Source of the DNA: Bidens hawaiensis
Lineage: Eukaryota > Streptophyta > Magnoliopsida > Asterales > Asteraceae
Assembly (NCBI GenBank): GCA_021521415.1
Contig: JAIQDT010000061.1
Location: forward strand, 3,472,001 to 3,536,000
Reading direction: 5' to 3'
Length of the DNA stretch: 64,000 nt
The notes below the pieces were generated by a model. It was not told the DNA's origin and searched no databases. It saw only the letters and a program-made list of their open reading frames with translations. Position 1 is the first letter of the stretch, and each line of letters starts with the position of its first letter. This document shows positions 1 to 43,342 of the stretch, piece by piece. The position numbers and the translations under genes are program-made.

Positions 1-333
1 AGAGTACTTAGGGATTCTCTAGCTCATGTCTTGTGTCAGGTGAGTTCATGATGCCCCTTTTAACTCTTTTTAAGTTTTTGGGTTAGCATGCACACCAAAG
101 CGATTTTGCTTAATGAAACGTTTAAACTATTTTATATAGGTTTGCTTGTATATGGTAGGCCATGGGATGTTATAGTATGTATGTATGTATTATTGTATGG
201 CCAATATTTGGCGATGTTAGTAGTCGATATCGACTACGGATGTTACGTATGCCTACTTGTGTTTGCATACGTTGATGAGTTGTTACGTGTTTGGGTTGTA
301 CGTGTGCTCGACCGTGATGTTATTACTTGGATG

Positions 334-364
<31 letters not shown>

Positions 365-817
365 GGGACATAATTTTAAGGATGTCTATATATATTTATA
401 TATATATATATATATATATATGTAAGTATGATTATTATTTATTGATGTTATTTATTTAAAACTTGAACTCACTCAGCTCAAGCTGACTTTGTGTGCATGT
501 TAGTGTAAGTTTCAGGTTAGGAGATGGATGCATTACCGCTTGGACGTGCACGAAGCTACTTGGATGGTGGAGGGCATGCTTAGTCGGATGTTTCAATAAT
601 AATTAACATTTTCATTTCAACGTTTATTTAAATACATTTGAATTGGTTTTGGGCCTAATTCCCGGGTTTCGGGAACTTGTTTTATTAATTATGGTTTTCC
701 GCTGAATTATACTCTGAATTGGTTGTTTTAATGAAATTAACTGTTTTGAGTTAAGAATTTTTGTAAGCAATTTGTATGAATACCAACTGTAGGATTCTCG
801 GGATTTGGGGTCTTACA
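1..817 (+). mobile_element. Gypsy LTR, 3' part (cut by window start)
   Basis: This segment aligns along its length with the 3' part of the LTR at 12373-14491, including the GTCAGGTGAGTTCATGATGC block (36-55), a TA microsatellite, the ACTCACTCAGCTCAAGCTGA box and the terminal GGGGTCTTACA. It ends in CA at 817. What follows is not a primer site but an acidic reading frame, so this is either a solo LTR or the 3' LTR of an element lying to the left. The start is outside the window, so no target duplication can be tested; the right flank begins CAACG. Confidence 0.85.
337..423. repeat. TA microsatellites inside LTR
   Basis: Two TA-rich runs (about 337-361 and 390-421) lie between the GTGAGTT block and the ACTCACTCAGCTC box of the LTR. 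The LTR at 12373-14491 has TA runs at the matching place (about 13949-14021). Confidence 0.9.
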
Positions 818-7624: not shown

Positions 7625-8528
7625 TGTAAGGCCCCGAACCCCGGGAACCCCACAGTTGGTAATCATACAAAACACTTAAAAAATATTTAAACAAAAAAAA
7701 TTTTCAAGCTTTCCATTAAGCAACCAATTTCAGAGTAAAATTCAGCGGAAAATGTAAATAATAAAATAAGTTCCCAAAACCCGGGAATTTTGCCCAAAAC
7801 CAACATAATTATCTTTAATAAAAAATTTTAAAAATAAATGTTTAATAATAAAATCTTCAAATCTCGTATGCCCTTCACCGTCCAAGTAGCTTTGTGCACG
7901 TCCAAGCGATAAGGCATCCTCTTCCTAACCTGAAACTCACACTAACATGCACATAAAGTCAGCTTAAGCTGAGTGAGTTCAAGTTTTAAATAAGTAACAA
8001 AAGTCTTAATAATCATTCCAACGGTTTTAAAACTGTAAACGGAAATACATTAGTTAGGTCATTACATTTAATAAATAATCATCCTTACGTATGAACATCT
8101 CTATACGTACATTCCTATATATATAAATATATATATATAACATTCAATAATAACATTCAGGGTCGAGCAAACGTACAACCTAAACACGTAATGCATGCAA
8201 ACACAAAGTAGGCATACGCAACATTTAGTAGTCGAGACGACTACAACATTCGTCAAATATTGGCCATTCTATAATATATATACATACACACATTCTTTAA
8301 CATTCCAAGGCCTACTAATACTAGCAAGCCTATGTAAAATCGTTTAAAACATTTCATCAAGCAAAATCGCTTAGGTGTGCATGCTAGCCCAAAACTTAAA
8401 AAGAGTTAAACGGGGCATCAAGAACTCACCTGAAATCAACCGAACACCTGTAGCGAGCTAGGAAATCCCTAAGTGCACATTCACAAGTAAGGGCCTGTAA
8501 ATTGTACACGACGCGTCACTAAACTAGA

Positions 8529-9560
8529 TCGTAAGAACTCACTTGCCTAATGGGCCGTTCAAGCCCAACACTTTGGCCCGAGGCCCAACCCATACCCAAT
8601 TACTTTACCTCAGCCCCTAAAACCCTTCAATTAACCAAATCCACCCTACGATCATGGTCGGGGCTAACCATGATGCACAACTCACCCGCCGGTAATCAAA
8701 TCGAGTAGAATACGCGCGTAATAAATCTTAAAACCCACTTGTCAAACCGATCAGCCCCAAATGTACCAAATTCCCATATTAACCTTTTCATACATCATAA
8801 TTATGTCACCTGAGTTGATAGGGTTGACGGTTCCTTTTTACCACTCTCAATTTAACATTTAAACGACAATTCGCGCACCGCCGACTCGATTGACCAATCA
8901 CCAACCAAATCAGCCCCGAGTATCAAAAAAATAATTTTCCCACAGCCCTTAAACTCCCCTAGGGCCATGCAAACTGATTCGGTTGGTCATTCTATTGATT
9001 AACGCATCAAACTCAACAATTGACAATTCTACACCCGATAAAACTCACTTGCCTAATGGGCCGTTCAAGCCCAACACTTTGGCCCGAGGCCCAACAACTT
9101 GGCCCGAGGCCCAACCCATACCCAATTACTTTACCTCAGCCCCTAAAACCCTTCAATTAACCAAATCCACCCTACGATCATGGTCGGGGCTAACCATGTT
9201 GCACAACTCACCCGCCGGTAATCAAATCGATTAGAATACGCGCGTAATAAATCTTAAAATCCACTTTTCAAACCGATCAGCCCCAAATGGACCAAATTCC
9301 CATATTAACCTTTTCATACATCATAATTATGTCACCCGAGTTGATAGGGTTGACGGTTCCTTTTTACCACTCTCAATTTAACATTTAAACGACAATTCGC
9401 GCACTGCCGACTCGATTGACCAATCACCAACCAAATCAGCCCCGAGTATCAAAAAAATAATTTTCCCACAGCCCTTAAACTCCCCTAGGGCCATGCAAAC
9501 TGATTCGGTTGGTCATTCAATCGATTAACGCATCAAACTCAACAATTGACAATTCTACAC
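8529..9560. repeat. About 510-bp tandem duplication in the solo LTR
   Basis: The stretch from ACTCACTTGCCTAATGGGCC (near 8536) to the ACAATTGAC region repeats almost unchanged from about 9043 to 9560. The second copy has a short extra repeat of ACTTGGCCCGAGGCCCA. Both copies fall inside the predicted first intron of the LTR leader (9651 to 8495). Confidence 0.9.
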
Positions 9561-9925
9561 CCGATAAACCCTAGTTTTCGAACTAAAATCGATTGACCGA
9601 CCTAAACACCTTCAATGAATATGGTTTTTAAGTATGATGTACCACACATACCTAGGAGGATTTTGGTGCAAAAACCTTACTCAAAACAGTCCCGGAAACG
9701 CTCAATTGAACAGCCACCCGGTTAACCTAAAACAAGTCGTTTAACGATCAATACGCGCAATATAAAGGTCAATTAAGGTTTAAAAGACATGGGGAATCAT
9801 AAAACCGACCTTAAATTGAAGTTTTACGGCTTAATATTGGCTGCACAGAAGATTTTCGCAAGGGGGGGCTGCTCTTGGCCGATCGGGATGGAGAATAGAG
9901 TTAGGGTTAGGATTTTTTTGTTAAT

Positions 9926-9941
9926 TATTATATTATAAAAA
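9926..9941 (-). promoter_or_regulatory. Candidate TATA region of the solo LTR
   Basis: In sense orientation TTTTATAATATAATAATTAA is followed by TCCTAACCCTAACTC. This lies about 175 bases from the LTR start. The same order (TATA-like run, then a CCCTAA-like box, then an AGCAGCCCCC stretch) recurs in the LTRs at 12373, 37554-38822 and 60631. Confidence 0.4.
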
Positions 9942-10119
9942 TTTTACATCCAGGCCCCTCCCAATTGAAGTGTAAGGCAAAATGGAAGGAAAAGTTAAGT
10001 TCTTTAACGTACCTGGATGACGTAAAGGCTTTCAAGAAATGTCGGTTAAGTCCCGAGAGTTATACATACTTTACACGCGCTAAATCATTAAACCGGAAGT
10101 TGACGGGTATTACACAACT

Positions 10120-11318
10120 CCCAAACCAGGATTTTACACCTTCCATGGTTGGAATGTTATTTCCAAATAGTAGTATGTCATCAACATACAATACTAAGAA
10201 AGTGATGATGCTCCCACTAGCTTCTTATACACGCAAGCTTCATTAGCGTTCTTAATGAATCCAAATTTCTTAACTTCTTCATCAAAACAGTGATTCCAAC
10301 TTTTAGATGCTTGTTTCAACCCATAGATTGATTTCTTTAACTCGCATACTTTATTAGGATGTTGTGGATTAACAAAACCTTCGGGCTGAACCATATAGAA
10401 ATCTTCTTGAAGATGCCCATCTAGAAAAGCGGTTTTGACATCCATTTGCCAAATCTCATAGTCATAATATGCAGCTGTGGCAAATAATATCATAATCGAC
10501 TTTAGCATTGCCACAGGAGAGAAGGTCTCATTATAATCAACCTCTTGATTTTGATTAAAACCTTTTGCTACAAGTCTTGCTTTATAAGTATCCAAGTTTC
10601 CATGCATATCGGTTTTCTTCTTGAAAGCCCACTTACTTCTAACCGGTTTGGAATTAAGAGGTGGTACAACCAAATCCGATACTTGGTTGTCATGCATAGA
10701 TTGCATCTTAACATTCATGGCTTCAAGCCATTTGTCACAATTGGATTGTGACATTGCATCATGGTATGTGGTGGGTTCATCCGAAGCTACCACATAGCGT
10801 CCATCGATGAAAAATCCATATCTTTTGGGTGGATGACTAATTCTACCAGATTTGTGAACGTTTTGTATGTCTTGATCAACCATTTGATCATTCTCAACAA
10901 CTTCTTGTTGATTGCTAGTATCAACCAAATGTGTATCAGCTTGTGGTTCTCGATCCTCCTCGAGTTCCACCGTTCTATTAGTTCCTTCCATAAGGAACTT
11001 AGTTTCCAAGAACTCGGCCTTTCTAGCAATGAAAACCTTTTGCTCGGTTAGGTTGTAGAAATAATATCCTATAGAGTCTTTGGGATATCCTACGAAGATA
11101 TACTTAGTGGATCGGCTTTCAAGTTTATTTTGGGTGTTGTTCTTAACATAAGCCTCACAACCCCATACCTTTAAATATGATAATGATGGAACCCTTTCAT
11201 TCCATCTTTCAAAAGGTGTCTTGTCCACTTTCTTGGTAGGAGACATATTTAGAATACGGGCCACGGAGAGCAATGCGAAACCCCAAAATGATAGAGGCAA
11301 TGTGCTTCTAGCCATCAT
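10120..11318 (-). pseudogene. Copia integrase C-terminus and reverse transcriptase
   Basis: The open frame 11318-10194 has the integrase C-terminal region (TPFERWNERVPSLSYLKVWG, GCEAYVK, FVGYPKDSIGYYFY) followed by RT motifs: WAFKKKTDMHGNLDTYKARLV, AKGFNQNQEVDYNETFSPV, QMDVKTAFLDGHLQEDFYM and SIYGLKQASKSWN. Past the frame end the YVDD catalytic box is coded at 10177-10188. The frame is then cut by the solo LTR at 10114. It copies element RNA into DNA in virus-like particles. The start is taken from the long frame; in the intact element it would be part of one Gag-Pol polyprotein. Confidence 0.9.
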
Positions 11319-11978
11319 AGATCAAATCATATCTAATAGAGTTTGGTTCCTCCTTTTGGACACACCATTATGTTGTGGTGTTCCGGGTGGAGTAAGTTGT
11401 GAGATGATCCCACAACTCGTAAGATGATCTTGAAAAGCATCACTTTGGTATTCACCTCCTCTATCCGAACGAAGTACTTTGATGGTTTTATTGAGTTGAT
11501 TTTGTACTTCATTTTGGAAGACTTTGAACATTTCAAAAGCTTCATCTTTGTGTCTTAACAAGTACACATACCCATAACGACTACAGTCGTCAATAAAGGT
11601 AATGAAGTATCTTTCACCATTCCTTGTCATTGCCTTAAAAGGACCACATACATTCGAATGCATGATACCTAATAAGTCTTTTTCCCTTTCGTTTGTTCCA
11701 CTAAAGGGCTCCTCGGTCATCTTTCCTTGTAAACAAGATTCACACTTATCAAATGAATCATCTTCATTTGATTCCAAAAGACCTTTCTTTTGAAGTGTAT
11801 CTATGCGATCTTTGTTTATGTGACAAAGGCGACAATGCCAAAGATAGGTCTTACTCAAATCCATTTTGGGTTTCTTGGTGCTTGATTGGTACAACGTGTT
11901 ATCAAAAGATGTGTTATCATGAACTAATTCATAAATGCCATTAAACGGCATTGCTTTAAAATAAAAGACATCATTCAT
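11319..11978 (-). pseudogene. Copia integrase, zinc-binding and core domains, mutated catalytic residues
   Basis: The frame starts inside the GAG-pre-integrase region. It shows the HHCC zinc-binding pattern (WHCRLCHIN ... CESCLQGK) and the core. The first catalytic Asp of the usual HTDVCGP box reads HSNVCGP; the second box, LRSDRGGEYQS, is intact; the third, normally GVSERRN, reads GVSKRRN. Asp-to-Asn and Glu-to-Lys both correspond to G-to-A changes in the coding strand. It ends at a stop next to the following RT frame (11318). It would have joined element DNA to the genome, but with two of three catalytic residues lost it cannot. Confidence 0.9.
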
Positions 11979-12372
11979 AAAAACACAAATGCAATTGTCT
12001 ACAAACTTTAAATCAGTACCACATTATCTTAAATGTTCTTCAAAACAACTTCCAAACCATTTAGAAGCTTCAAAATGTAGTCTCCTCGGGCTTCAACATC
12101 AACCTTTGCTCCGTTGCCCATGAAGAGACTTATATCTCCTTTCTTGAAATTATCACTTCCTTTGAACTCCTACAACAAATTGCAAATATGAGTTCCACAT
12201 CCGGTATCCAATACCCATGTGTTAGAAGAAATAATATTAAGATCAACATGAATCATGAAAGTTGTACCTGAGGTTTGCCCCGCATCCTTCTTTGCTTTCA
12301 ACTCTTTGAGATAGGTTGGACAATTCCTCATCCAATGTCCTATCTCACCACAACCAAAACACGGATCCTCCG
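11979..12372 (-). pseudogene. Copia Gag zinc knuckle and protease fragment
   Basis: On the minus strand from 12372 leftward a CCHC knuckle CFGCGEIGHWMRNC is followed about 30 residues later by the aspartic protease box WVLDTGCGTHIC (DTG at about 12200-12208). Frame breaks separate this from the integrase frame. The N-terminal Gag and 5' LTR are missing because G1 begins at 12373. Confidence 0.85.
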
Positions 12373-12547
12373 TGTAACGCCCGTTAATTTTCGGTTCAAG
12401 GATTCGAAGCTTGTAAAGTATGTATATTTCTCAGGATTTAACCGACATTTCTCGGAAACCTTCTCGTCATCCCGGTACGTTAAAACATTTAACTTTTAAA
12501 CCAAAATGTTAATTCTTTAAAATTTGAGGGGCTAGATGTGAAAAATG

Positions 12548-12560
12548 TTTATAACATAAA
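12548..12560 (+). promoter_or_regulatory. Candidate TATA region of G1
   Basis: TTTATAACATAAA lies about 175 bases into the LTR and is followed by AACACTAATCC, the counterpart of the CCCTAA box seen after the TATA-like run of related LTRs. The transcript start is therefore expected near 12570-12600. Confidence 0.4.
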
Positions 12561-12954
12561 AAACACTAATCCTCCCCTCTCCTATTCCGATCGGCAGCAA
12601 GAAGCCCCCCCCCCCCCCTGCGATATTCTTCTTTCCAGCCAAGGTTTGAGCATAAAATATCAATTGAAGGTTAGTTCTACGATTCCCAGGTAATTTACAC
12701 CTTAATTTTTTTTTTTAGCAATGCAATTGTGAATTTAATATTACATGTAAATTGGATTACATCGAAACAGAAGGCAAGCGGGCAACAAGCTGCGCCGCTA
12801 CTCCTTTTTGAATCGCAAAACCCAATCTTTAAATTGATCTTTATATCACGCGTATTGATCATTAAATTGCTTGTTGTAGGCTTACCGAGTGGCTGTCAAT
12901 TCTAACCTCTTCGGGATGATTTTGGTTGAGGCTTTTGCACCAAAATCCTCCAAG

Positions 12955-13581
12955 GTACGTCTAGTATATCATACTTAAAAATCATGTTCATTGGTGTTCG
13001 TTAGATTGGTCAACTAGTTGTAGTTTGAATGTTAGTGTTCGGTTGACTAGAATTGTAGTTTGGTGCGTTTAACGCGAGAGTTGAAGTGATTAACGACCAA
13101 TTCAGCTCAGGGGGAATTTGGTTTGATGTACGGGCTGTTGAAAAATCATTTTTATAAGTTATGGGGCTAAATTGGTTGTCGGTTACTCAAACGGGTCGGT
13201 ACAACGCGCAATTGCGTTTATTGAATAGTTGGTGCGTTGTACTTGCGAGTTACCGACCCATTTGACTCATGTAGCGTCGTGTGGATTTGCTGGCTGTGAA
13301 TTTATCATATTGGGTCCACACGGGGCTGATTTGGATGTTAATGGCCTAAACGACTCATAAACGCGCGTGTTAGTGTCACCTAGTGCTTCCGAGGGTAAAT
13401 TGGGAATTCTTTATTCCCGTGAGTATCTAAGGGTTGTTTTGGTGAATGTAAGGCCCCGGGGGCTGTTGTGATTGAGTTTGATGAAATCGAGGCTTTAGGT
13501 AACTCGATCCATGTTAGAACGTCTCGTAGGATAAACGGGTCATCTCGATGTCAATAGTAATAATTGTATGTAAACCTACAG
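12955..13581 (+). other. Predicted leader intron 1 of G1 (627 nt)
   Basis: Donor CCAAG|GTACGTC and acceptor CCTACAG|GAG. The matching interval in the LTR at 60631-63732 is 626 nt (62671 to 62046, donor CTAG|GTATGT, acceptor GACAG|GTG). In the G2 LTR it is 623 nt (38304 to 37682, donor changed to GC). In the solo LTR at 7625 it is 1157 nt, of which about 510 is a tandem duplication. No transcript evidence. Confidence 0.5.
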
Positions 13582-13645
13582 GAGTTTGAGTTGTAGGGCT
13601 ACGTAGGGATTCTCTAGCTCGTGGTGAATACGTGTCTTTTGTCAG

Positions 13646-13984
13646 GTGAGTTCATGATGCCCCTTTTTACTCTTTTTAAGTTTTTGGGCTAGCATGCACA
13701 CCTAAGCGATTTTGCTTGATGAATTGTTTAAATTATTTTGGATGGGCTTACTTGTTTAGGGTAGGCCTTGAGATGATATTATCGTATGTATGTATGTATA
13801 ATTGTATGGACAATATTTGGCGATGTTTAGTAGTCGTTATCGAATACGGATGTTTACGTATGCCTACTCCGTGATTGCATACGTTGGATGAGATGTTACA
13901 CGTTTGGGTGGTACGTGTGCTCGACCCTGATGTAATTACTTGGATGTTTATATATATATATAGGGATGTACTTATAAAGATGTT

Positions 13985-14022
<38 letters not shown>

Positions 14023-14185
14023 AGGATGATTATTTATTGATGATGATGGCCTAATTGATATATCCCTTTTATTTTTAAAAACCTTGGAATGACTATTATG
14101 ATTATTAATTATTGGTGTAATTTATTAAAACTTGAACTCACTCAGCTCAAGCTGACTTTGTATGCATGTTAGTGTGAGTTTCAAG
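13646..14185 (+). other. Predicted leader intron 2 of G1 (540 nt)
   Basis: Donor GTCAG|GTGAGTTC follows a 64-nt predicted exon (13582-13645). The acceptor region is TTTCAAG here and TTTCAG|GTTAGG in related LTRs. The interval contains the TA repeats and the palindromic box. Corresponding intervals are 40-515, 8429-7930, 61982-60947, 16185-15659 and 57560-57127. Confidence 0.5.
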
Positions 14186-14494
14186 TTAGGAGGAGGATGC
14201 CTTACCGCTTGGACTTGCACGAAGCTACTTGGATGGTGAAGGGCATACGTGGATGGAAGATTTAAATATTGAACTTTTCTTTTTAAAAGTTTTATCAAAT
14301 ACATTTAAATTGGTTTTGGGCATAATTCCCGGGTTTTGGGAACTTATTTTATTAGTTATGGTTTTCCGCTGAATTATACTCTGAATTGGTTGTTTTAATG
14401 GAATGAACGGTTTTCAGTTTAAGTATTATTTTTTTTTTAAGTATTATGGATGAATACCAACTGTAGGATTCCCAGGATTCGGGGTCTTACAAGT

Positions 14495-14506
14495 TGGTAT
14501 CAGAGC
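14495..14506 (+). other. Primer binding site of G1 (initiator Met-tRNA)
   Basis: TGGTATCAGAGC starts three bases after the LTR end (CTTACA|AGT). It is the usual plant primer site complementary to the 3' end of initiator Met-tRNA. Confidence 0.95.
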
Positions 14507-14599
14507 CATGGTTCGAGGGATCCGAGCATCCCCGAATGCTTGGACTCGAACTGTAAGAGAAAACTAGTATGCCCACCACGAGTAGCTGCACGCCAAGAG

Positions 14600-14829
14600 G
14601 TAACTTTAAATTATTTAGTCATTCCTTTGAATTTTAAAGTTTCCAGTATGTGATTAATTGTTTAAGTGTTAGATAGAAGGCTAATGGGGTTAGGGGCAGG
14701 GGGTGATTAGGACGGGCAGGTAAAGTAAACGACTAATTACACTTGATGAACGACATTAGCTGTTTACCCTTACCTTACATGTTCTAAATGCCACTTGTAC
14801 TTGACCGTGTTAAAATTCTGTCTTTGTTG
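14600..14829 (+). other. Predicted leader intron 3 of G1 (between primer site and gag)
   Basis: Donor AAGAG|GTAACT follows the primer-site exon. The acceptor position reads TTCTGTCTTTGTTG, with the AG lost; the homologous site in G2 (25073) reads TTCTGTCTTTGTAG|G with a good pyrimidine tract. The length is 230 nt here and 227 nt in G2. It ends 9 bases before the gag ATG. Confidence 0.45.
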
Positions 14830-14838
14830 GGATAAGTC

Positions 14839-15382
14839 ATGGTTAATACTCGAGCAGCTAAGAGAGGTGGTCCTAGTGTTCATGGCCATGGTCGTAAGAC
14901 ATGTGCCGAAGCTGAGAGTGAGATTCCTATTTCCCAGCAGGAAACCCCGATTCATGAGGAGGGGGATAACCCCACCTTAGATCCTGCTATGCGAGCGGAA
15001 ATCGCGGATGAGGTTTACCAGGTGCTTAATAGCGTCGTTCCCGAGATCGTTGCTGAGGCCGTTAGGGCCATGGAGGAGTCATTGGTCGGTAAGAGTTTGG
15101 ATAAGGGAAGGAGCAGTAAGGAGGTGTATGTTGAAGAGGAAGAGGAGGTGTAGGTGCCGAGTGGGGATGAAGATGAGGTGTGGACTATTAGTGTATCTAC
15201 CCGGGGTTGCTCGTATGGAGACTTTAAGAAGTGCGACCCTCCTTCTTTCGATGGTACTGAGGACGCTTTGGCAGCACATCAATGGGTGAGGGAGATGGAG
15301 GCCGTTCTGAGAGTTAGTAAGTGCAAGGGGGATGACATGGTGACTTATTCTACTGCCTCATTTCGTTCCGAGGCACTATGTT
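14839..15382 (+). pseudogene. gag: G1 gag, N-terminal half
   Basis: The start is the ATG at 14839 (MVNTRAAKRGG), which matches the G2 start. Gag is the capsid/nucleocapsid precursor that packages element RNA in cytoplasmic particles. A TAG at 15151-15153 interrupts after an acidic EEEEEV run; the same frame then goes on through VSTRGCSYGDFKKCDPPSFDG and HQWVREMEAVLRVSKCKGDD, the start of the retrotransposon-gag domain. The frame is broken at codon ALC by the solo LTR inserted at 15383 and resumes at 18439. Confidence 0.88.
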
Positions 15383-18300
15383 TGTCACACCCTGACTCGC
15401 ACAATGCGGAAGCGTAAAACGGAAATGTAACAGACACCTCTGGTATCAACACATTGTTTATAAAGAAACATTACAAACTAATTTACAATATATTACATTT
15501 CTTTGTTCTATCATTGTTTTACCGTCTAGGTGATACAAACAAAACTAGTTTGTTAACTATACATTCTTACTACTATCGCCCTTTCTTCTATTCACATAGC
15601 ATCAACCACACACCTCAGGCAAGTAACAGATCACCAAATCATTCTGATTTAGGTACACCTGAAAAGCAGTTTAAAACGGGTCAACTACTAGAGTTGGTGA
15701 GTTTCACGAGTTTCAAGAAAACAGTAAAGAGTATTCACAAGTCAACACTTGTAATCATGAAATAAGTATGTATGTATGTAAATGATGTATGTGATGTAAT
15801 TATGCTAAGCTACAGTGAAGCCTTGACTGTATGTGCTGCATGCATCCATTTCCCACGCTCCATCAACCACTGTGGCCCATTTCCACCCACAACATGCCCA
15901 GGTAGCTATGTCTAACACTACATAGCCTGTTTGTATAAATATGGTCATGTGCAAACGGCGCTATGTGACACGGCAACCAGGCCGATTCCGTTTGGGTTTG
16001 TCAAACCAATAGTACTATTCACAAGCCACCGGCTCGAAGTTAATCACTGTGATCGTGGGGACTTTCGTGTGTTAGCACTTAGATAATTCGCATCAGTACA
16101 TGTTTCAGGTATGTATATGTAATCAAACATGCTTTTCACCCCAAAAGTTCGTAAAACAGTTTAAAAGTGGGGTCATGAAACTCACGGTTTATTAGATAAT
16201 CAATACTGTATCAGCTCGTGGTGTGTTCGGTCTGCTATCAGTAGTTCCTATAATCAATATTATAATAATATTAATATTTTAATATTATTATAATCTCAAT
16301 ACTAAACTGGGCTGTATAGCTAATCTGGGTGTAGCTGGAACGCCCAGAAAGTGGCAATAGGCTTAGGTTGTGATGTTGTTCAATGTCTAATACTTAAAAC
16401 TGAACTTGGCTCAGATTCCCGTTTTCCCAGCTGGGCCAAGTTGTTCGTTTACACCTTCAGAAAACAGTTATGGGAAAATAAGCTTGGGTAAATGTATTGG
16501 TTAACAAAATGATTACGTTGTAAAGAAAGATCACATACCGGGGTCCCGGATTAGCCACGGGGCCCGTTTCCGTTTATAGAGTTTGAATTGAGAAGAAACG
16601 CGCACAATCCACCCGGATTGTCCAGGTTTCTCATAGAAAAGTTCATTTTTACTTAATTAGCCCAAAAATATGATTTTTGATCACTCTTGGTGTTTTGATA
16701 TTCCCGCAGATTCACTAGTCGCGAACTTGCCGGTTTTTATAAAAACTGAATTTGTTTAATATTCAGATTAGCATAATTAATTAACTGTTAATCATTAAAT
16801 TATGAAAATTTAACCACTTATCAATTCAAATATGTAGAATTTTTATAAAAATATTTCTGGAATTTATTTACTGATTTATTAATTTATAAAAATTCATTTT
16901 ATCAGCTATATTTCGCCTGAAAATCGTCCGTTTACCCCAAACAATTTCCAAAAATTCCACAAAAATTCCTGAATACTCAAATCATGTCCCAAAACAACCT
17001 GTATCAATTCCAGAATGTAAAAAGCTGGTGCAATATTCTTTTCGGCCCAAATTCGGCTGTAAAAACTCACACAAACGCAAATAAACAAAACACCTTTAAA
17101 CATCTCCAAATGATCCCAAAATTCATATGTGATCAAAATACATAAAATCTGAGTTCCCAGAAAAATTTCATAATTTTTGAAGTATTTTAGCTATTTTTCC
17201 CAAATAAAAGTCCCAATTCGGTAATAAATTCTCCAAATATTCTCGGATGCTCAAAAAATTACCAAATTTGAACAGGGACTCATTGACATGGTCCCTGATG
17301 TCCCTGAAAAATTTCAAGTCCTAAAAATATGCACATCACAACCTTAACCTAAATAGCCCGTAAGCGAGTGTTTCGGCATTACCTTAGCGGGTTTGGCTCG
17401 TTTTCGACTTTTTAATCAAGTTTTCAGGTTCTTGTGCTTCTAATAAAGCTTGGTACAAGTCCTATATCACAAACCAAGCAATATTTCATCAACATAACAG
17501 CCCTTAAGTTAGGGTTTCGGCTAGTGTACAAAAACGAACTTTTGAACCGTAAAAACGTCGTTTCAACCCTTTAATCCGTGTTTATGGCAAAAAAAAAACT
17601 ATCAAATCAGGTTCCTTACCATGTGTATGATCAAAACACGTTTATGGACCATTTTTAGGATTTTTACACGGTTAGGAATGATTTTTAGTAACCAAGACAT
17701 GTTTTTATGGTATTAAACAAGTTCAAAAGCTACTTATTTATGCCCTTTACCTTAGGGTTTCTTGAGTTTTTGAGCTGGAGAAGAAGTTTATTTCCAGAAT
17801 TTTCAAGAAATAATGTTGAAAATATCTTGTATCTAGTTTAAATGTGAAAGAATAAAAAGGGGGGGCTGCTGCTGCAATCGGACCATCATGGGCCCACTTT
17901 GGGCCCATTTTGGCCCAAGTTTCTGATTTCTCAAGCCCAAATATGAAAAGCCCGGTCCAAATTTAGTTCGGGTTCGGTTTTTGGCGCGAAAAATTTATCG
18001 GGTGCGTTAAACAGCGCGAAAACGAGTGTTTTTCGGCTAGTTTTGTGTAAAATTATAAAAGCATACTATATGTTTGTAAAAATCAAAACTATTTTCACGG
18101 ATCACTTAAAACATTTCAAATAAGTGTTTGGTAAGTCTTTTTCGGCTTAACGGATGATACAATGCTTGGTTTGTAACTATCTTTTGCGTTTAAATCTATA
18201 ACGGGTAGTTAAACGAGCATGTTTTCGTTTAACTTGTTCGCTATCAAACTAAGACCATATTTCGAATATCTTAGCTTGCATAGATCGTATATCACTTATA

Positions 18301-18433
18301 GATGGCCCCCCGAGATATCTGGGTCATAACTCAACCCATTCGGTTAATCATTCGTTCGTTACGCAATAAGCCGTTAAACGCTTATTCGGTTTGTGAATAC
18401 CAAGGTGTATCCGGTTTTGTCACGAATGTCACA
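15383..18433 (-). mobile_element. Solo gypsy LTR (G3 family) inside G1 gag, TSD ATGTT
   Basis: A 3051-bp LTR from TGTCACACCC to ...ATGTCACA, flanked by ATGTT at 15378-15382 and 18434-18438. Removing it and one ATGTT restores the gag reading frame across the site. It is homologous along its length to the two LTRs of G3 (26374-29874, 34490-37553), whose orientation defines sense as minus. It has no internal region. Splice-like sites in sense are GTGAGTTTC (16185) and CTTTTCAG|GTG (15659). Confidence 0.95.
16259..16294. repeat. Perfect 16-bp-arm hairpin in the G3-family LTR
   Basis: Arms ATTATAATAATATTAA (16259-16274) and TTAATATTATTATAAT (16279-16294) are perfect inverted repeats around a TATT loop. 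The same hairpin is unchanged in the LTR copies near 27253-27288 and 35369-35404, although flanking bases differ. Confidence 0.95.
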
Positions 18434-25410: not shown

Positions 25411-26373
25411 TGTAAGACCACAAATCCCGGGAATCCTACAGTTGGTAATCATATCAAAACTTTACAAAAACTAAAACCCAAAGCAATTCATTTTATTTTG
25501 AAAATCAGTTCAGAGTATATAATCAGCGAAAAGTCATAAGTATCAAAAACAAGTTCCCAACAAAACCGGGAAATATGCCCAAAACCAAATTTGAAAACGT
25601 TTAGTAATAATAGAAAAAGAACAGTTTTGCATTATTAAATTCCCCATCCAGATATGCCTTCAACCGGCCAAGTAGTCTCGAGCACGTCCAAGCGGTAAAC
25701 ATCCTCCTCTTAACCTGAAACTCAATCTAATATACACACAAAGTCAGCTTGAGCTGAGTGAGTTTAAGTTTTAATAAACGACATTTATATAATTTATTCC
25801 AAGAGTTTAATTATAATTCGGGATATGAACAAATAGGCAATGGGTAAATGATAAGTAACTATACTTATATATATATATATATATATATAACATCCAAATA
25901 ATAACATCAAGGTCGAACACGCGTACGACCCAAGCACGTGATACGGGATTTTAGGGACCCGTTATGATGATAATGCCACACAAGCCGACCACTTACGAGC
26001 TTTCCAGGGTCCGCCACAGGATTTTAGAACCCGAGTAATATAGTTTGGCCCGGCCAAAATCAACATGCACGCAACATTCCATACGATGATGATCATGCCA
26101 CATGAGCCTCCCCCCTCACAGGGTTTCCAGGGCCCGCCACAGGATTTTGGAACCTGAGTAGTATAGTTTAGCACGGCCACGATCACCATACCCGATATGC
26201 CAACACAAAGTAGGCATACGCAACCATCCTTAGTCAATAATAACTAATTAACATCACTAATCATAAGCTATAAGATAACACATGTGTAAGCATACATATA
26301 TATCATTTCAAAATATAACATAATACAAGCAAGCCTATGGAAAATCATTTAAAAGGTTCATCAAGTAAATCAG
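25411..26373 (-). mobile_element. G2 5' LTR, part 1 (left of the G3 insertion)
   Basis: It begins TGTAAGACC next to the primer site and resembles the LTRs at 7625 and 60631 in its first kilobase, including AAAGTCAGCTTGAGCTGA (25740-25757) and a TA microsatellite (25866-25889). Two degenerate units of about 120 bp with GAGTAATATAGTTT..CCCGGCC lie at about 25945-26185. The LTR continues at 37554. Confidence 0.9.
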
Positions 26374-29300
26374 TGTCACACCCCGACTAGCACAATGCGG
26401 AAGCATAAAAACGGGAATGTAACAGACACCTCTGGTATCAACGCATTGTTTATAAAGAAACATTACAAACTAATTTACAATATATTACATTTCTTTGTTC
26501 TATCATTGTTTTACAGTCTAGGTGGTACAAACAAAACTAATTCGTTAACTAAACGTTCTTACTACTAACGCATTTGCTTCTATTCACATAGCATCAACCA
26601 CACACTTCAGGCAAGTGACAGATCACCCAATCATTCCGATTTAGGTACACCTGAAAAGCAGTTTAAAACGGGTCAACTACTAGAGTTGGTGAGTTTCACG
26701 AGTTTCAAGAAAACAGTAATGAGTATTCACAAGTCAGCACTTGTAATCATGAGATAAGTATGTATGTATGTAAATGATGTATGTGATGTAATTATGCTAA
26801 GCTACAGTGAAGCCTTGACTGTTCGTGCTGCGTGCCTCCATTTCCCACGTTCAATCAACCACTATGGCCCCATTTCCGCCCAAAACATGCCCCAAGTAGC
26901 TATGTCTAACACTACATAGCTGGTTCGTATAATTATGGTCATGTGCAAACGGCTTTGTGTCTCGGCAAACCGTGCCGCTCCGTTTAGGTTTGTCAAACCA
27001 ATAGTACTATTCACAAGCCACCGGCTCGAAGTTAATCACTGTGATCGTGGGGACTTTCGTGTGTTAGCACTTAGATAATTCACATCATCACATGTTTCAG
27101 ATAAGTATATAGATATTAGCAAACATGCTTTTCACCCCAAAAGTTCGTAAAACAGTTTAAAAGTGGGGTCGTGAAACTCACGGTTTAGTAGATATTCAGT
27201 ACTGTATCAGCTCGTGGTTTGTTCGGTCCGCTATCAGTAGTTCTTATAATCAATATTATAATAATATTAATATTTTAATATTATTATAATCTCAATACTA
27301 AACTGGGCTGTATAACTAATCTGGGTATAGTTGGAATGCCCAGAAAGTGGCAATAGGCTTAGGTTGTGATGTTGTTCAATGTCTAATACTTAAAACCGAA
27401 CTTGGCTCAAACTCCCGTTTTCCCAGCTGGGCCAAGTTGCTCGTTTACGCGTTCAGAAAACAGTTATGGGAAAATAAGCTTGGGTAAATGTTGGTACATG
27501 TATGTCAGTAGTTCATAGTCTAGCATTTGTAATCGAGTCTGTAATGTAATTATGTTTTGTTTATGTTTGTTTTGTAATGCGCGAAGTTGTCAACAAGTTC
27601 GCTATGGCGAACTTGTTGAATCAGCGAAGTTATTGACAACTTCGCCTGTGGCGAAGTTGTCGTGTTTATATACTGTTTCAGACGAAACAGTTTAGTATAG
27701 TTGGTTTAGGGTTTTCGTTTCAGTTTTCAGTAACCGAGTTACGTGTCATAGTCTGTAACGGTGACCTCGGGTCACGTGTTTGTTATCAATATAACGTGGT
27801 TGGTTTATTGCTTGTGTGTTCGATCTCTACATACTCTACACTCGTATATACCTACGCAGGGATTCCGCACCTGCGTTGTTAGAGACATCCCGTGTACGAT
27901 CCGTCCAGGAACCTACAGTAAATGTATTGGTTAACAAAATAATTAAGTTATAAAGAAGGATCACCTATTAGGGTCCCGGATTAGCCACGGGGCCCGTTTC
28001 CGTTTATTCAGTTTAATTTAAGAAGAAACGCGCACAATCCATCCGGATTGTCCAGGTTTCTCATAGAAAAGTTCATTTTCACTTAATTAGTCCAAACATA
28101 TGATTTTTGATCACTCTTGGTGTTTTGATTTTCCCGCAGGTTCACTAGTCGCGAACTTGCCGGTTGTTATAAAAACTGAATTTGTTTAATATTCAGATTA
28201 ACATAATTAATTAACCGTTAATCATTAAATTATGAAAATTTAACTACTAATCAATTAAAATATGTGGATTTTTATAAAAATATTTCTGGAATTTATTTAC
28301 TGATTTATTAACTTATAAAAATTCATTTTATCAGCTATATTTCGCCTGAAAATCGTCCGTTTACCCCAAACAATTTCTAAAAATTCCACAAAAATTCCTG
28401 AATACTCAAATCATGTCCCAAAACAACCTGTATCAATTCCACAATGTAAAAGGCTCGTGCGATATTCTTTTCGGCCCAAATTCGGCTGTAAAAATTCACA
28501 CGAACGAAAATAAACAAAACACTTTTAAACTTCTCCAAATGATCCCAAAATTCATATGTGACCAAAATACATCAAATCTGAGTTCCCAGAAATATTTCAT
28601 AGTTTTTGAAGTATTTTAGCTATTTTTCTCAAATAAACGTCCCAATTCGATAAATAAATTCGCCAAATATTCTCGGATGGTTGAAAAATTACCAAATTTG
28701 AACAGGGACTCATTGACATGGTCCCTGATGTCCCTGCAAAATTTCAAGTCCTAAAAATATGCACATCACAACCTTAACCTAAATAGCCCGTAAGCGAGTG
28801 TTTCGGCATTACCTTAGCGGGTTTGGCTCGTTTCCGACCTTTTAATCAAGTTTTCAGGTTCTTGTGCTTCTAAGCAAGCTAGCTACAAGTCCTATATCAC
28901 AAACCAAGAAATATTTCATCAACATAACAGCCCTTAACTTAGGGTTTCGGCTAGTGCACAAAAACGAACTTTTGAACCGTAAAATCGTCGTTTCAACCCT
29001 TTAATCCGTGTTTATGGCCAAAAAAACTATCAAAGCTGGTTCCTTACCGTGTTTATGATCAAAACATATTTATGGACCATTTTTAGGATTTTTACACGGT
29101 TAGGAATGATTTTTAGTAACCAAGACATGTTTTTATGGTATTAAACAAGTTTAAACAAGTAAAAAAAGCTACTCATTTAAGCTCCTTAACTTAGGTTTTC
29201 TTGCTGTTTTTGGCTGGAGAAGAAGTGGTGTCCAGAATTTTCAATAAACGATATTGAAAATGACTTGAATCTAGTTTAAATGTGAATGAATAACAAAAGG

Positions 29301-29874
29301 GAGGGTGGCGGCTGCGGCCGGGATTCCTTATGGGCCCCCTTTGGGTTGTTTTGGCCCAATGATCTGATTTCTCCAGCCCAAATACGAAAAGCCCGGTCCA
29401 AATTTAGTTCGGGTTCGGTTTTTGGCGCGAAAAACTTATCGGGTGCGTTAAACAGCGCGAAAACGAGTGTTTTTCGGCTAGTTTTGTGTAAAATTATAAA
29501 AACATACTATATGTTTGTAAAAATCAAAAATATTTTCACGGATCGCTTAAAAAATTTCAAATAAGTGTTTGGTAAGTCTTTTTCGGCTTAACGAATGATA
29601 CAATGCTTAGTTTGTAACTATCTTTCGCGTTTAAATCTATAGCGGGCGGTTAAACGAGCATGTCTTCGTTTAACTTGTTTGCTATCAAACTAAGACCATA
29701 TTTCTAATATTTTAGCTTGTATAGATCGAATATCACTTATAGATGGCCCCCCTAGATATTTGGGTCATAACCCGACCCGTTCGGTTAATCGTTCGTTTGT
29801 TACGCAAAAGGCGTTTATTTGCTTAATCGGTAAATACGTACTGAGGTGTACCTTGTTTTGGCTCAAATGTCACA
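26374..29874 (-). mobile_element. G3 3' LTR (carries a copia solo LTR)
   Basis: Read on the minus strand the LTR goes from TGTGACATTTGAGCC to GGGGTGTGACA. Its length is 3501 bp, of which 434 are the nested copia LTR plus target repeat (27489-27922). It faces the polypurine tract at 29875-29886, so it is the 3' LTR. The hairpin of 16259-16294 recurs here. Left target duplication: ATCAG 26369-26373. Confidence 0.95.
27489..27917. mobile_element. Copia-like solo LTR, 429 bp, TSD GTAAA
   Basis: From TGTTGGTACATG to GGAACCTACA, flanked by GTAAA at 27484-27488 and 27918-27922. The other two G3-family LTRs lack it and read straight across. The CAGTTTAGTATAG, ATCAATATAAC and CTACGCAGGGATTCCGCACC parts and the short length fit a copia LTR. 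Two strong hairpins lie at 27591-27618 and 27635-27661. Strand cannot be fixed without internal sequence. Confidence 0.92.
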
Positions 29875-29886
29875 TTCTCCCCCGTT
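29875..29886 (-). other. Polypurine tract of G3
   Basis: The minus strand reads ACGGGGGAGAA directly before the LTR start TGTGACA. Confidence 0.85.
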
Positions 29887-29911
29887 ATAAAATTTCGTCC
29901 CCGAAATTCGA

Positions 29912-30982
29912 TTATTGAACTTTGTCTTTGTTGGAAAACAGGTGCGGGTATTTCTTTTTGAATTCAGATTTCCGCTCCCACGTGAATTCGGGTCCCCTTT
30001 GTGAATTCCACCGAACTTTTACTAGAGAGATTTTGTTGTGTCTTAATTGTTTTATTTTTCCCTCTAATATTTCCACCGGTTCTTCAACGAAATTCAGTTT
30101 TTCGTTTATGTTTAAGTCTTTTAATGGCATGATTTCGGTTTCGTCAGTAAGACACTTTTTCAGGTTCGAAACATGAAAGACATCATGAATAGAACTCAAC
30201 TCCACTGGGAGTTTCAGTCGGTAAGCTACCGGACCTATCTTATAAATGACTTCATATGACCCAATGTATCGCGGGGCTAGTTTACCGGTTTTTCCGAATC
30301 GAATGACGCCTTTCCACGGGGATACTTTCAGAAAAACTCTGTCGCCTATTTCAAAGGATAACGGCTTTCTACGAACATCAGCATAGCTTTTCTGTCGATC
30401 TCGGGCGATTTTCAATTTGCTTGTGATTTTACGGATTTTGTCGGTGGTTTCTTGAATCAAGTCAGATCGTGTAATTTGGGTATCTCCAACCTCAGTCCAA
30501 CACAAGGGTGATCTACATTTCCGTCCGTACAGCGCTTCATACGGTGCCGCTTGAATCCTACTGTGATAGCTATTGTTGTACGAAAATTCGACCAGTGGGA
30601 GATGTTGATCCCAGTTTCCACCGAAGTCTAGTACACAAGCGCGAAACAAATCTTCTAAGGTTTGAATGGTTCGCTCAGATTGACCGTCGGTTTGGGGATG
30701 GTAGGCGGTACTTAGGTCAATTCGGGTTCCCAAAGCTTCTTGTACGGCTTGCCAAAAACGAGAGGTGAAATGGCTATCGCGATCAGAAATAATTGAAACG
30801 GGTACGCCGTGTCGGGATACGATTTCATTGATGTAGATGTGAGCAAGTTTTTCGGTTGTGAACGTGGTTCGGATTGGAAGGAAGTGTGCGGATTTGGTTA
30901 GTCGGTCAACTATTACCCATATTGCATCATTTCCTCTGGAGGTTTTTGGGAGACGTGTTACAAAATCCATGGTAATTTGTTC
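29912..30982 (-). pseudogene. pol: G3 integrase core and chromodomain-like C-terminus
   Basis: The catalytic core is intact: [30 protein letters not shown] (first Asp in MDF), [20 protein letters not shown] (second) and [14 protein letters not shown] (Glu). The C-terminal part includes [20 protein letters not shown] and [20 protein letters not shown], and ends with a chromodomain-like block ([29 protein letters not shown]), as in Tekay/Del chromoviruses, where it is thought to steer insertion to marked chromatin. A TGA (about 30971-30979) separates it from the zinc-binding part in the next frame; it probably replaces a Trp codon, since both sides are in phase. Confidence 0.92.
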
Positions 30983-31945
30983 TCATTTCCATTGTGGTAT
31001 TTCTGGTTGGTGCAACATTCCCGAAGGTTTTTGATACTCGGCTTTAACCCTCGCACAGGTTAAACATTTACTGACGTATGTAGCTATATCCTTTTTCATA
31101 CCGGGCCACCAATAATACTCTTTCAAGTCCTTGTACATCTTATCTGTTCCAGGGTGAATGGAGTATTTGGACTTATGGGCTTCGTCCATGATCAAGTCAC
31201 GCGGATTGCTAAAAGTGGGAATCCAAACTCGATTTTTGTAGTATAGAATTTCATCAGTTCTTTCTTCAAAGTTTTGTTCGGTTCCATGCAAGTTTTCATT
31301 TTCCAAGTGATCTCCTTTCAGAGCTTCGTTTTGAGCAATACGAATTTGCTTAGTGAGGCTGGTTTGGATGATCATTCCAAGTGCTCGGACCCATAGTGGT
31401 TTGATCCTGTCTTTTCTGCTCAAAGCATCTGCTACTATATTAGCCTTGCCCGGATGGTATCGAATCTCACAGTCGTAATCATTCAACAATTCTACCCATC
31501 TCCTCTGCCTCATGTTTAGTTCTTTCTGGTCGAAAATATGTTGTAGGCTTTTGTGGTCGGTATATACTGTACACTTGGTGCCATACAAATAGTGCCTCCA
31601 GATCTTGAGTGCGAAAATAACCGCGCCTAGTTCCAAATCATGGGTGGTATAATTCTTCTCGTGCACCTTTAATTGTCGAGAAGCGTATGCTATGACTTTG
31701 TTTCTTTGCATAAGTACGCACCCTAAACCTTTCCGGGACGCATCACAATAAACTACCAAATCATCAGTTCCCTCTAGAAGACTCAGTATCGGGGCCTGGC
31801 ATAGTTTCTGTTTTAGCAATTGAAAAGCCGCTTCTTGTTCTTCTCCCCAAACGTAAGCACGATCTTTTTGAGTCAAAAGAGTTAAAGGTTGGGCTATGCT
31901 GGAAAAATCAGCAATAAAACGCCGATAATACCCAGCTAAACCCAA
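30983..31945 (-). pseudogene. pol: G3 RNase H and integrase zinc-binding domain
   Basis: RNase [61 protein letters not shown] and [13 protein letters not shown], with all catalytic acidic residues present. It is preceded by the RT thumb/connection block ([20 protein letters not shown]). Then comes the integrase HHCC zinc-binding domain ([32 protein letters not shown]). The frame lies between two single nonsense codons (near 31979 and 30980) and was continuous with its neighbours. Confidence 0.93.
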
Positions 31946-31978
31946 AAATTGGCGAATCTCTTTCGGTGACTTTGGGGC

Positions 31979-33939
31979 TTACCAGTTTTTGATGGCTTCA
32001 ATCTTGCTCGGGTCTACATGGATACCATGTCGATTAACAACGTGTCCTAGAAATTGTACTTCTTGTAGCCAAAATTCACATTTTGACAGCTTGGCATACA
32101 ACTTTTCCTGCTTCAATATCTCCAAGATAGTTCGTAAATGTTGCTCGTGTTCCTCCTTGGTTTTCGAATATATCAAAATGTCATCTATAAACACGATAAC
32201 AAATTTGTCGAGGTACGGTTTACAAACTCGATTCATAAGGTCCATGAAAACTGCGGGGGCATTAGTCAGTCCGAACGGCATAACTAAGAATTCGTAGTGG
32301 CCATATCGAGTTCGGAACGCCGTTTTGGACACGTCTTCCATTTGGATTTTAACTTGGTGGTAACCGGATCGAAGGTCAATTTTCGAGAAATAGTTTGCCC
32401 CTTGGAGTTGGTCAAACAAATCATCTATTTGTGGAAGAGGGTATCGGTTCTTGATGGTAACTTTGTTTAATTCCCGGTAATCAATGCACATTCTAAAACT
32501 TCCATCTTTCTTCTTTACGAACAATACCGGTGCTCCCCAAGGAGAATAACTAGGACGAATGAAACCCTTATCTAACAATTCCTGTAACTGGTTGGATAGT
32601 TCTTGCATTTCAGAGGGTGCCAATCGATAAGGTGCCCTAGCAATGGGGGCTGATCCTGGGATTACGTCAATACGGAATTCAACCTGTCGGTTCGGTGGTA
32701 ATCCGGGTAAATCGTCAGGAAAGACATCGGGGTATTCACGTACAACGGGAATTTCTTTTATGCGTTTCTCATCAGGATTCTTTATAGTCACGTTTGCCAA
32801 GAATGCCATACAACCTTGGCGTAAACATTTCAACACTTTGAGATGAGACACGAGAGGTAATATCAAACCAGACTTCTCTCCTTGTACTACAATCACCTCA
32901 CCATTCGAAAAGGGAATTTTAACCGTCTTGTCGTTACACACAATCTCCGCCTTATACTTGGTTAACCAGTCCATGCCAACGATTACATCAAAACTTCCTA
33001 ACTCTACCGGGAGTAGGTCAATAAGGAATTGGTAGTTATTAAGAATAATGGAACAGTTTTGGATTATTTGGTTGACAGTTATAGAGTTACCGTTAGCGAG
33101 CTCTATAGTATAGGGATTTGTTAGTTCACTAACTGGCATATTACCCAGGGATACAAAGCTAGAGGAAACAAAGCTTCTATCGGCACCAATATCAAATAAT
33201 ACAGAAGCATATTGATCAGAAACAGCAAATGTACCTGTTACCACGTTCGGGTCTTGCCGAACTGTCACCCTATCCAAACAACAGTGGTGGTAGGCATCTG
33301 ACTGCTGCAAGTTCAGTACTATCTGATGTAACATCGATAAGTACAGGGTCACGTCCCTCCTCTCCTGGTTAATGTTAGCTATGGCTATCGAGTGATCTAT
33401 CACACGGTCAGTCAGAACAGCCATCCAAGAGTTGTTTCCTGCGTTTGGGAGGTCAGGGCGAGGGGTAGGTATACTCAATGAACGAGAAGATGAAGTATCT
33501 ACCCTAGGGCGTGAAGGTCCTCCCCGGTCATGGGTAGATCTGAATGGAATCGAGGTAGGGTCAATCGGGGTTACCCGAATACGAGTCTGCCGGACTCGCG
33601 CAGTAGCTGAAGTCGTCGGCGACAGGTGTATAGGTGGAGTGGGTAATCTGGCTACTCTAGCAGGTGAACGATACTGACTGTTAACTTCGTCTTGATCCCT
33701 GCCTGGTGACCTGGGTGGATAACTATCGCATCTGTAGTCAGATAGATCAGGCACATTCCTGGGTAGCTCTCTATAGATAACTTCTTCTTCCACCTCTTCC
33801 TCTTCCTCCTCCGGTTCCTCTTCTGGGTCCTCTTCTTCAGGATCCTCCTCTTCTGGATCCTTCTCTGATTCTTCCTCGGGATCCTCTCTACAGATATTAC
33901 CGGTTCTTCTTCCGGTACGTAGTCGTTATTACTTGACAT
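31979..33939 (-). pseudogene. pol: G3 Gag remnant, protease and reverse transcriptase
   Basis: The polyprotein start [13 protein letters not shown] is at 33939; a frame change near 33890 leads into the long frame that begins in an acidic run. About 170 residues of Gag N-terminus (proline/arginine-rich, then [20 protein letters not shown]) join directly to [17 protein letters not shown] and the protease box [12 protein letters not shown], so the retrotransposon-gag domain and zinc knuckles are deleted. Protease has DIG where DTG/DSG is usual. RT is complete: [11 protein letters not shown] in its [12 protein letters not shown] form, [43 protein letters not shown] (FIDD) and [10 protein letters not shown]. 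It ends at TAA 31979-31981, an apparent Lys/Glu-to-stop change. It shows no gap at the place where G1 and G2 have the predicted intron. Confidence 0.92.
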
Positions 33940-34489
33940 GACTCTGCACAAAGGATCGTTACAAGAATAATATCTATTGCTAGCGCTAACTATTGTCGAA
34001 AGGATTAATTAGTTAAGACAAATTTAATATTAATTATATTAGAATATAATATTAGTTTTATTAAAATTTTAATTATTTTTATTATTTAAATCAATACTGA
34101 ATATAAATAAATATAATATTCATAGTAAAATGTACCGTCATCAACAGTATCGTACGTACACGTATTCATACACCTTGTTCCACATAAACACGTATGAGTG
34201 TTACATATATATATACTTTCACATTACCTTTTATACACATATGTTGCCACTTTTACCTAACCACATGTTCCGCGACTTCTCCAAGAATTCCCTCGTACAA
34301 GCAAGTCTGTTATTATGTTCCGGACCACAATAACTCACTTGCCCTACAAGTTCATCCCGGCATCCATCAGTATATAATATTAATTTATTATTTAATTATT
34401 TCCCAGAGTTAATCGAGCCTACGGTTATATTTTAGGTACCCTAAGGGATAACCTAATCCTTTATAACCAATGGCTCTGATACCAACTTA
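33940..34489 (-). other. G3 leader with primer binding site
   Basis: Non-coding AT-rich stretch between Gag start and the 5' LTR. The initiator Met-tRNA primer site (minus strand TGGTATCAGAGCC) covers 34473-34484, five bases from the LTR end. Confidence 0.85.
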
Positions 34490-37400: not shown

Positions 37401-37553
37401 TAGATCTTATATCACTTATAGATGGCCCCCCGAGATATCTGGGTCATAACCCGACCCGTTCGGTTAATCGTTCGTTTGTTACGCAAAAGGCGTTTATTTG
37501 CTTAATCGGTAAATATGTACTGAGGTGTACCTTGTTTTGGCTCAAATGTCACA
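34490..37553 (-). mobile_element. G3 5' LTR
   Basis: A 3064-bp LTR that pairs with 26374-29874 and differs only by scattered substitutions and small indels apart from the nested copia LTR. It is followed by the target duplication ATCAG (37554-37558), identical to 26369-26373, so G3 is a complete insertion of about 11.2 kb. The hairpin of this family is at about 35369-35404. Confidence 0.95.
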
Positions 37554-42175: not shown

Positions 42176-42340
42176 ACAGATATTATTAGGGTCTGGTCCC
42201 TTCTGTCTCAGATATTATTAGGGTCTGGTCCCTTCTGTCTCAGATATTATTAGGGTCTAGTCCCTTCTGTCTCTGTCTCAGATATTATCAGGGTCTGGTC
42301 CCTTCTGTCTCATATATTATTAGGGTCTGGTCCCTTTGTC
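42176..42340. repeat. 32-bp tandem array, about 5 units
   Basis: Repeats of TCAGATATTATTAGGGTCTG plus GTCCCTTCTGTC, with one degenerate unit. It lies inside the predicted leader intron of the LTR at 41694-43480. Confidence 0.95.
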
Positions 42341-42670
42341 TCCAATAACCATACATGTCACGTCACTCGATCATACATTCATTTTCATTCATGCATACTG
42401 TACATATCTTCTGGTCATGTATATACGTATATGTACATATTCATTCGTATAAACATTCCATAATAACATTCAATACTTAGTCATACATATAACATACACA
42501 TATCAGCTCAAACCCAGCCCCTAGCAGGTCAGCTCGGAAAAATTCTATTTTCATTAACAGTCCTTTAACAAAAATGCATCAGAAAATGAATTTTATAAAA
42601 TTTCGCATGGAAGAATTTCGCTTCGCATGCGTGGAATTTCGCTTCGCATGGAACTGTTTCGCTTCGCAAG

Positions 42671-43330: not shown

Positions 43331-43342
43331 TTTATATAGTGG
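43331..43342 (-). promoter_or_regulatory. TATA box of the LTR at 41694-43480
   Basis: The minus strand reads ACTATATAAACC, about 140 bases from the LTR start, followed by a C/A-rich leader with ACACACTTCTTCTCTC. This is a canonical plant TATA context. Confidence 0.6.

Follow-up and report, generated by a model that had tools for sequence, protein, structure and literature searches.

Introns are generally absent from plant long terminal repeat (LTR) retrotransposons other than Ogre and EVADE, according to the accessible part of a 2025 review (PMC12786077). In the reports on spliced BARE1 (PMC3735527) and on sunflower copia elements (PMC7730604), as far as their accessible parts go, the introns touch gag or other coding parts. 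It is still debated how an LTR element apportions its RNA to translation and to replication. Here we describe a Ty3/gypsy family of Bidens hawaiensis whose LTRs appear to contain introns of their own. The window, by which we mean the whole stretch of DNA analysed, comprises 64,000 nucleotides (nt) of contig JAIQDT010000061.1 (positions 3,472,001 to 3,536,000; assembly GCA_021521415.1) and holds five copies of this LTR family, A to E. Judged from the sequence, a spliced, intron-bearing LTR leader is probably real, with spliced RNA serving translation and unspliced RNA serving reverse transcription; the support is good for the donors and moderate for the whole structure. Introns in plant LTR elements are already known, and it is their placement in the LTR leader that we provisionally regard as new; no report of introns inside plant LTRs or an LTR leader was found in the literature searched, a search whose reach took in few subscription papers.

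Predicted exons and introns of the LTR leader

Copy A is a 5' LTR (12373 to 14491, plus strand). Its exon 1, taken as 12580 to 12669 with the start assumed at 90 nt before the donor AAG|GTTAGT, is followed by a predicted intron of 210 nt (12670 to 12879) that ends at the acceptor TTGTAG|GCTTACC, and by an exon 2 of 75 nt (12880 to 12954). Intron 2 (12955 to 13581, 627 nt), exon 3 (13582 to 13645, 64 nt) and intron 3 (13646 to 14183, 538 nt) come next, and exon 4, with its LTR part at 14184 to 14491, runs on through the primer binding site (PBS). The end of intron 3 was placed by alignment to the other copies; it would fall at 14185 if A's own AG (14184 to 14185) were used. An earlier note on this DNA had proposed two introns in the LTR, corresponding to our introns 2 and 3, and all of its sites in copy A are present: the GT at 12955, the exon at 13582 to 13645, the donor GTCAG|GTGAGTT at 13646 and an acceptor region ending at 14185. 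The count of two did not hold, as three introns are predicted in the LTR together with a probable fourth between the PBS and gag.

The same layout was observed on the minus strand in B, C and D. Copy B is a solo LTR (7625 to 10114; target site duplication (TSD) AGTTG) with exons at 9899-9810, 9726-9652, 8494-8430 and 7929-7625, and copy C is another (60631 to 63732; TSD TTAAA) with exons at 63520-63431, 62746-62672, 62045-61983 and 60946-60631. LTR D lies in two pieces, a 5' portion at 37554 to 38822 and a 3' portion at 25411 to 26368, separated by a nested element with the TSD CTGAT; its exons 1 to 3 are at 38552-38463, 38379-38305 and 37681-37618, and its exon 4 is at 25714-25411. The start of exon 1 was assumed in each of these copies. 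Copy E (1 to 817, plus strand) is partial, being clipped by the start of the window, and retains the last donor and the last acceptor, with exon 3 ending at 39 and exon 4 starting at 516.

The order of sites claimed for these copies stood, except that D has GC instead of GT at the donor after exon 2, and the last acceptor, described as common to the copies, is TTTCAG|G in B, C, D and E and TTTCAAG in A. At the donor of intron 1, A, C and D read GTTAGT and B reads GTCGGT. Predicted introns range from 83 to 1157 nt, whereas exons 2 and 3 stay near-constant: exon 2 has 75 nt in each of the four copies, and exon 3 measures 64, 65, 63 and 64 nt in A, B, C and D, in agreement with the 63 to 65 nt reported before. 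Intron 1 is 210 nt in A, 83 in B, 684 in C and 83 in D; intron 2 is 627, 626 and 623 nt in A, C and D, the three values given earlier, and 1157 nt in B. The core TTAGGGATT...TAGCTCG of exon 3 is exact up to spacing in B and E and approximate only in A, C and D.

A fourth intron is probable between the PBS and the gag ATG. In D it would span 25299-25073 on the minus strand (GAG|GTAATG ... TTTGTAG|GGATAAGTCATGG; 227 nt), with the acceptor TTTGTAG|GG, and would terminate 9 nt before the gag ATG. Copy A has the same layout at 14600 to 14829 (plus strand; donor GAG|GTAACT) apart from the acceptor position, which reads TTTGTTG, the AG having been lost.

Further signals and repeats were seen in and around these exons. 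A donor-like CCGGTACGT / GTACGT at 12476 (LTR position 104) stands out in A and B, is less strong in D and is missing from C, and an acceptor-like TTYCAG|CC lies within exon 1 at 12640 (position 268 of LTR A). These two could bound one more intron, which would include the TATA-like motif. Intron 2 of B carries a tandem duplication spaced 526 nt (8563-9388), and a 62-nt tandem duplication (93%) precedes the predicted exon 1 of D (38613-38736). Minisatellite stretches occur in predicted introns of C and of G, a second LTR family described below (61109-61358, 42177-42342 and 42653-42868; units of about 68, 32/70 and 36 nt), and intron 3 of D has CTATATTACTCGG units related to them.

The best reading of A to E, from their sequence features, is an Asteraceae-like Ty3/gypsy family. 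As expected for such an element, a tRNA-complementary PBS, TGGTATCAGAGC, directly follows LTRs A (from 14495) and D (at 25407); presumably it is compatible with initiator tRNA-Met. Behind A and D, the interior has coding sequence of Ty3/gypsy type for gag, then protease and then the beginning of reverse transcriptase; in both elements it is interrupted within the window. Pfam Retrotrans_gag was matched in D (3.5e-16) and fell below the cut-off in A (21.7 of 24.1 bits), where RVP_2 is followed by RVT_1 (27.8 of 29.6 bits). A database search with the gag of D returned four relatives; Bidens hawaiensis supplied two of them (81 and 77%), Smallanthus sonchifolius one (56%) and Tagetes erecta one (50%). 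An Rfam search of 12300-14900 gave no match at the gathering threshold. A Ty1/copia interior (RVT_2 and integrase-side SH3; 10194-12023, minus strand) adjoins solo LTR B and is terminated by LTR A.

Support from donor rank, conservation, ATG content and other families

Every column of a MAFFT alignment of A to D was scored as a potential splice site, with a tolerance of 1 nt. The three LTR donors hold ranks 1 to 3 among 1837 sense columns, with means of 9.73, 8.61 and 7.33 bits, and the antisense maximum is 6.01. The three proposed acceptors (6.84, 6.21 and 5.57) rank third to fifth of 1829 sense columns when neighbours are merged; the second-best column (7.19) is the CAG that doubles as donor 3. 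The best chain of three introns scored 38.0 on the sense strand versus 27.7 on the antisense strand. Donor and acceptor pairs inside the LTR are conserved, and core splice columns are invariant in 22 of 33 cases, compared with 12.5 expected at random placement, and the fraction of placements reaching 22 was 0.011. Gapped columns number 2 of 76 in exon 2, 1 of 64 in exon 3 and 42 of 337 in exon 4; the three introns have 602 of 684, 545 of 1163 and 709 of 1138, respectively. Branch-like motifs are present in all four copies upstream of the first acceptor (TTGAT, 17-21 nt) and of the last (CTGAC, 28-30 nt).

Exons 1 to 3, about 229 nt when exon 1 is taken as 90 nt, were also examined for upstream ATGs, with windows of equal size drawn at random from the transcribed part of each copy for comparison; since the copies are related, these tests are not independent. 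They contain one ATG in A, one in B, two in C and none in D, with random means of 5.95, 5.69, 4.18 and 4.24; the share of random draws as poor in ATGs was 0.029 for A, 0.033 for B and 0.026 for D. With all four introns removed, the leader of copy A would be 652 nt long and contain 12 ATGs, compared with 2259 nt and 59 ATGs before removal, and in copy D 37 of 47 ATGs fall within introns. Weak AT-rich, TATA-like motifs were observed upstream of the first donor in A to D.

This leader layout is not restricted to the A-E family, as the window holds two more LTR families with a similar one. Family G is represented by one copy of 1787 nt (41695 to 43481, minus strand), which interrupts another repeat. 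Its best donor (9.8; AAAAAG|GTAGGT at 43144) and best acceptor (7.5; CACGCAG|GC, exon from 41955) flank a single predicted intron of 1189 nt behind a TATA-like box at 43338; a further donor reaches 9.3, and the top scores on the antisense strand are 7.7 for donors and 7.1 for acceptors. Exon 1 of G, 162 nt if it is assumed to start 32 nt beyond the first base of the TATA-like box, has no ATG (fraction 0.013), and the intron has 56. The 30-40 nt before the acceptor of G resemble the corresponding place in copies A, B, C and E, with 85-90% identity and E-values of 4e-5 to 9e-6, and this stretch was the only similarity of G to A found at that threshold. A 24-base piece of this acceptor block had no match in viral contigs and none in prokaryotic contigs. 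By eye, the last exons of G (43481-41695) and A (12373-14491) also have in common a TTCCGC...ACTCTGA block, perhaps related to 3'-end formation.

Family H belongs to a gypsy element of 11.2 kb (26374-37553, minus strand) that has inserted into intron 3 of LTR D and is flanked by the TSD CTGAT; another H LTR lies at about 15383-18433, inside the interior of element A. In H the two best donors (10.3 and 8.2) and the three best acceptors (10.4, 9.2 and 7.9) alternate in order. In copy H3 (34488 to 37553, minus strand; the last 2 bases may fall outside the LTR) the donors are at 36868 and 36493, and exons start after acceptors at 36572, 36414 and 34766. Copies H1 to H3 are 92-97% identical and keep these sites with one exception, given below. 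The LTR of H ends in AACTCAC...TTGACCC...TTTTCAG|G, and at 33943 (minus strand) an acceptor-like TTTGTGCAG|AGTCATG stands just ahead of an ATG-led reading frame, resembling intron 4 of A and D. In a further element, F (PBS at 56890), the stretch first taken as an LTR proved to be internal region. The idea of leader introns inside the LTR is thus favoured by the rank of the donors, the conservation of core splice columns, the paucity of ATGs in exons 1 to 3 and the similar layout of two further families.

Evidence against splicing and rival readings

Several observations weigh against a spliced leader. The splice-site weights were general plant frequencies, untrained on this host. The acceptor scores are not clearly above the antisense best of 5.96, and because the antisense maximum reaches this value, the acceptors taken alone are little proof; in addition, the top acceptor column, TTYCAG|CC (8.37), lies in exon 1 and is not used by the model. 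The score of the three-intron chain was matched by 3, 7 and 6 of 200 column shuffles (singles, pairs and triplets, respectively), which makes it only moderate. The sequences of exons 1 to 3 (invariant-column fractions of 0.29, 0.45 and 0.40) are no more conserved than the introns (0.42-0.46), while exon 4 is (0.52). In A, C and D, no YTNAY motif was found within 50 nt upstream of acceptor 2. Plant introns are usually richer in U than exons, and those predicted here are not overall (T 36.1% versus 37.0% in exons 1-4); U-richness therefore fails as a support. The G+C content of the introns is little lower overall (37.9 versus 39.5% in exons 1-4), and that of exons 1 to 3 (43-50%) lies above that of most introns (30-44%). 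The ATG depletion is weak in C (0.26), is not significant in any copy for exons 2 and 3 alone (fractions 0.10-0.30), and the spliced leaders would still hold 12 ATGs in A and 10 in D. In H the best antisense acceptor (10.4) equals the best sense one, the first donor of H2 has been lost (TT for GT), and ATG depletion is not significant (0.11 and 0.39).

The conserved spacing put forward by the earlier note carries less weight than it first suggests. The lengths are indeed kept, but windows of constant length are common across the LTR alignment: 113 of 2044 windows of 75 nt have identical length in the four copies, and 611 of 2055 windows of 64 nt agree within 1 nt. As so many windows keep their length, exon spacing was dropped as stand-alone proof.

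These results bear on the better of two rival explanations, namely that the leader remains unspliced and that the splice-like sites are chance motifs or are kept for a promoter or packaging function. Such a reading gains from the shuffled chains that reach the observed score, from acceptors that overlap the antisense control, from length constancy in 5.5% and 30% of windows for the two exon sizes and from introns that are no richer in U overall. It would nevertheless have to accommodate LTR donors that hold the first three ranks, over-conserved core splice columns, exons with few ATGs and a similar order of sites in both G and H, and we consider it unlikely. Still less probable is a scheme in which only read-through or host transcripts starting in the LTR are spliced and genomic and gag RNA begin downstream of the introns: the rice locus MIKKI, where a solo LTR is part of a spliced host-locus transcript in the accessible part of its description (PMC5599236), offers a precedent, but a TATA-like box precedes the first donor in G, as do weaker AT-rich motifs in A-D, and in D and H another predicted intron ends directly ahead of the gag ATG.

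Proposed roles of spliced and unspliced RNA

Our preferred reading, a spliced leader inside the LTR, suggests the following course of events. Transcription would start from a promoter in the LTR, near LTR position 180-240, and produce a four-exon leader from which host splicing would take out three introns, each contained entirely in the LTR, and probably one more between the PBS and the gag ATG. If splicing is partial, the spliced RNA, having shed most upstream ATGs, would be translated, and the unspliced RNA, which keeps the whole of the repeat (R) and unique 5' (U5) regions, would be the template of reverse transcription. We infer that the introns lie in R, as we do the position of the promoter, the splicing itself and the division of labour between the RNAs. 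Polyadenylation in exon 4 would put the introns in R, so that they would recur in the 3' untranslated region; splicing there may expose the RNA to nonsense-mediated decay.

During LTR replication, the 5' end of the template supplies the R-U5 of progeny LTRs. Copying from a spliced RNA would yield LTRs that lack the introns, and the introns are kept in five of five copies, with no intronless LTR among the five in the window; we infer from these two points that the reverse-transcribed RNA must be unspliced, and that the LTR copies still contain introns for this reason. A solo LTR, such as B or C, cannot reveal whether its parent element was active.

It is conceivable, though we hold the idea only tentatively, that plant Ty3/gypsy elements in general make use of LTRs with introns, and that splicing itself sorts their RNA into mRNA or genome. 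On an equally tentative footing, the common block AACTCAC...TGAC...CAG|G near the 3' end of the LTR would mark an R that splicing removes from the RNA to be translated and that stays in the RNA to be replicated. In triticale, the accessible part of a nanopore study describes a single Ty3/gypsy gag RNA without an intron (PMC7765848), which counts against such generality. If the predicted splicing is true, it would provide a simple switch, as the full LTR would be regenerated only by unspliced RNA and the ATG-poor leader would exist only in spliced RNA. It would also turn solo LTRs, of which plant genomes contain many, into ready-made cassettes of promoter plus exon for host genes.

Comparison with described systems places these LTRs among several partial likenesses. 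The deltaretroviruses human T-cell leukaemia virus type 1 (HTLV-1) and bovine leukaemia virus (BLV) have a donor inside the 5' LTR, and their genome is unspliced RNA, as we propose for A-E. For BLV, the accessible text places donors at positions 305 and 502 and does not say in which region these fall. Retroviral acceptors are much further downstream (7066 for the G4 acceptor of BLV, in the same text), whereas A-E would have three complete introns per LTR. In MIKKI (Osr29 plus a BAJIE solo LTR), LTR sequence is likewise joined by splicing in a plant transcript; unlike our family, it is described in the accessible text as a single domesticated locus in which splicing links two different elements (PMC5599236). 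Tyran and Varan, sunflower Ty1/copia elements, share with A-E an Asteraceae host and would share the coexistence of spliced and unspliced isoforms, with two introns in the short isoform; they differ in being copia elements of the short-gag type, and the accessible part of their description does not place the introns in the LTR (PMC7730604). In the Ty1/copia elements BARE1 and EVADE, translation and replication draw on different pools of RNA, and it is the spliced RNA that is translated (PMC3735527, PMC12786077, as far as accessible), which is the division we propose here. Their coding intron truncates gag-pol, whereas the predicted leader introns of A-E would alter no coding sequence; our examination of A-E for introns covered the LTR and the leader. 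Ogre, of the Tat lineage, is like A-E a plant Ty3/gypsy element, and in the accessible account an intron is removed from part of its transcripts (PMC6317226); the predicted introns of A-E differ in that they sit in the LTR and the untranslated leader.
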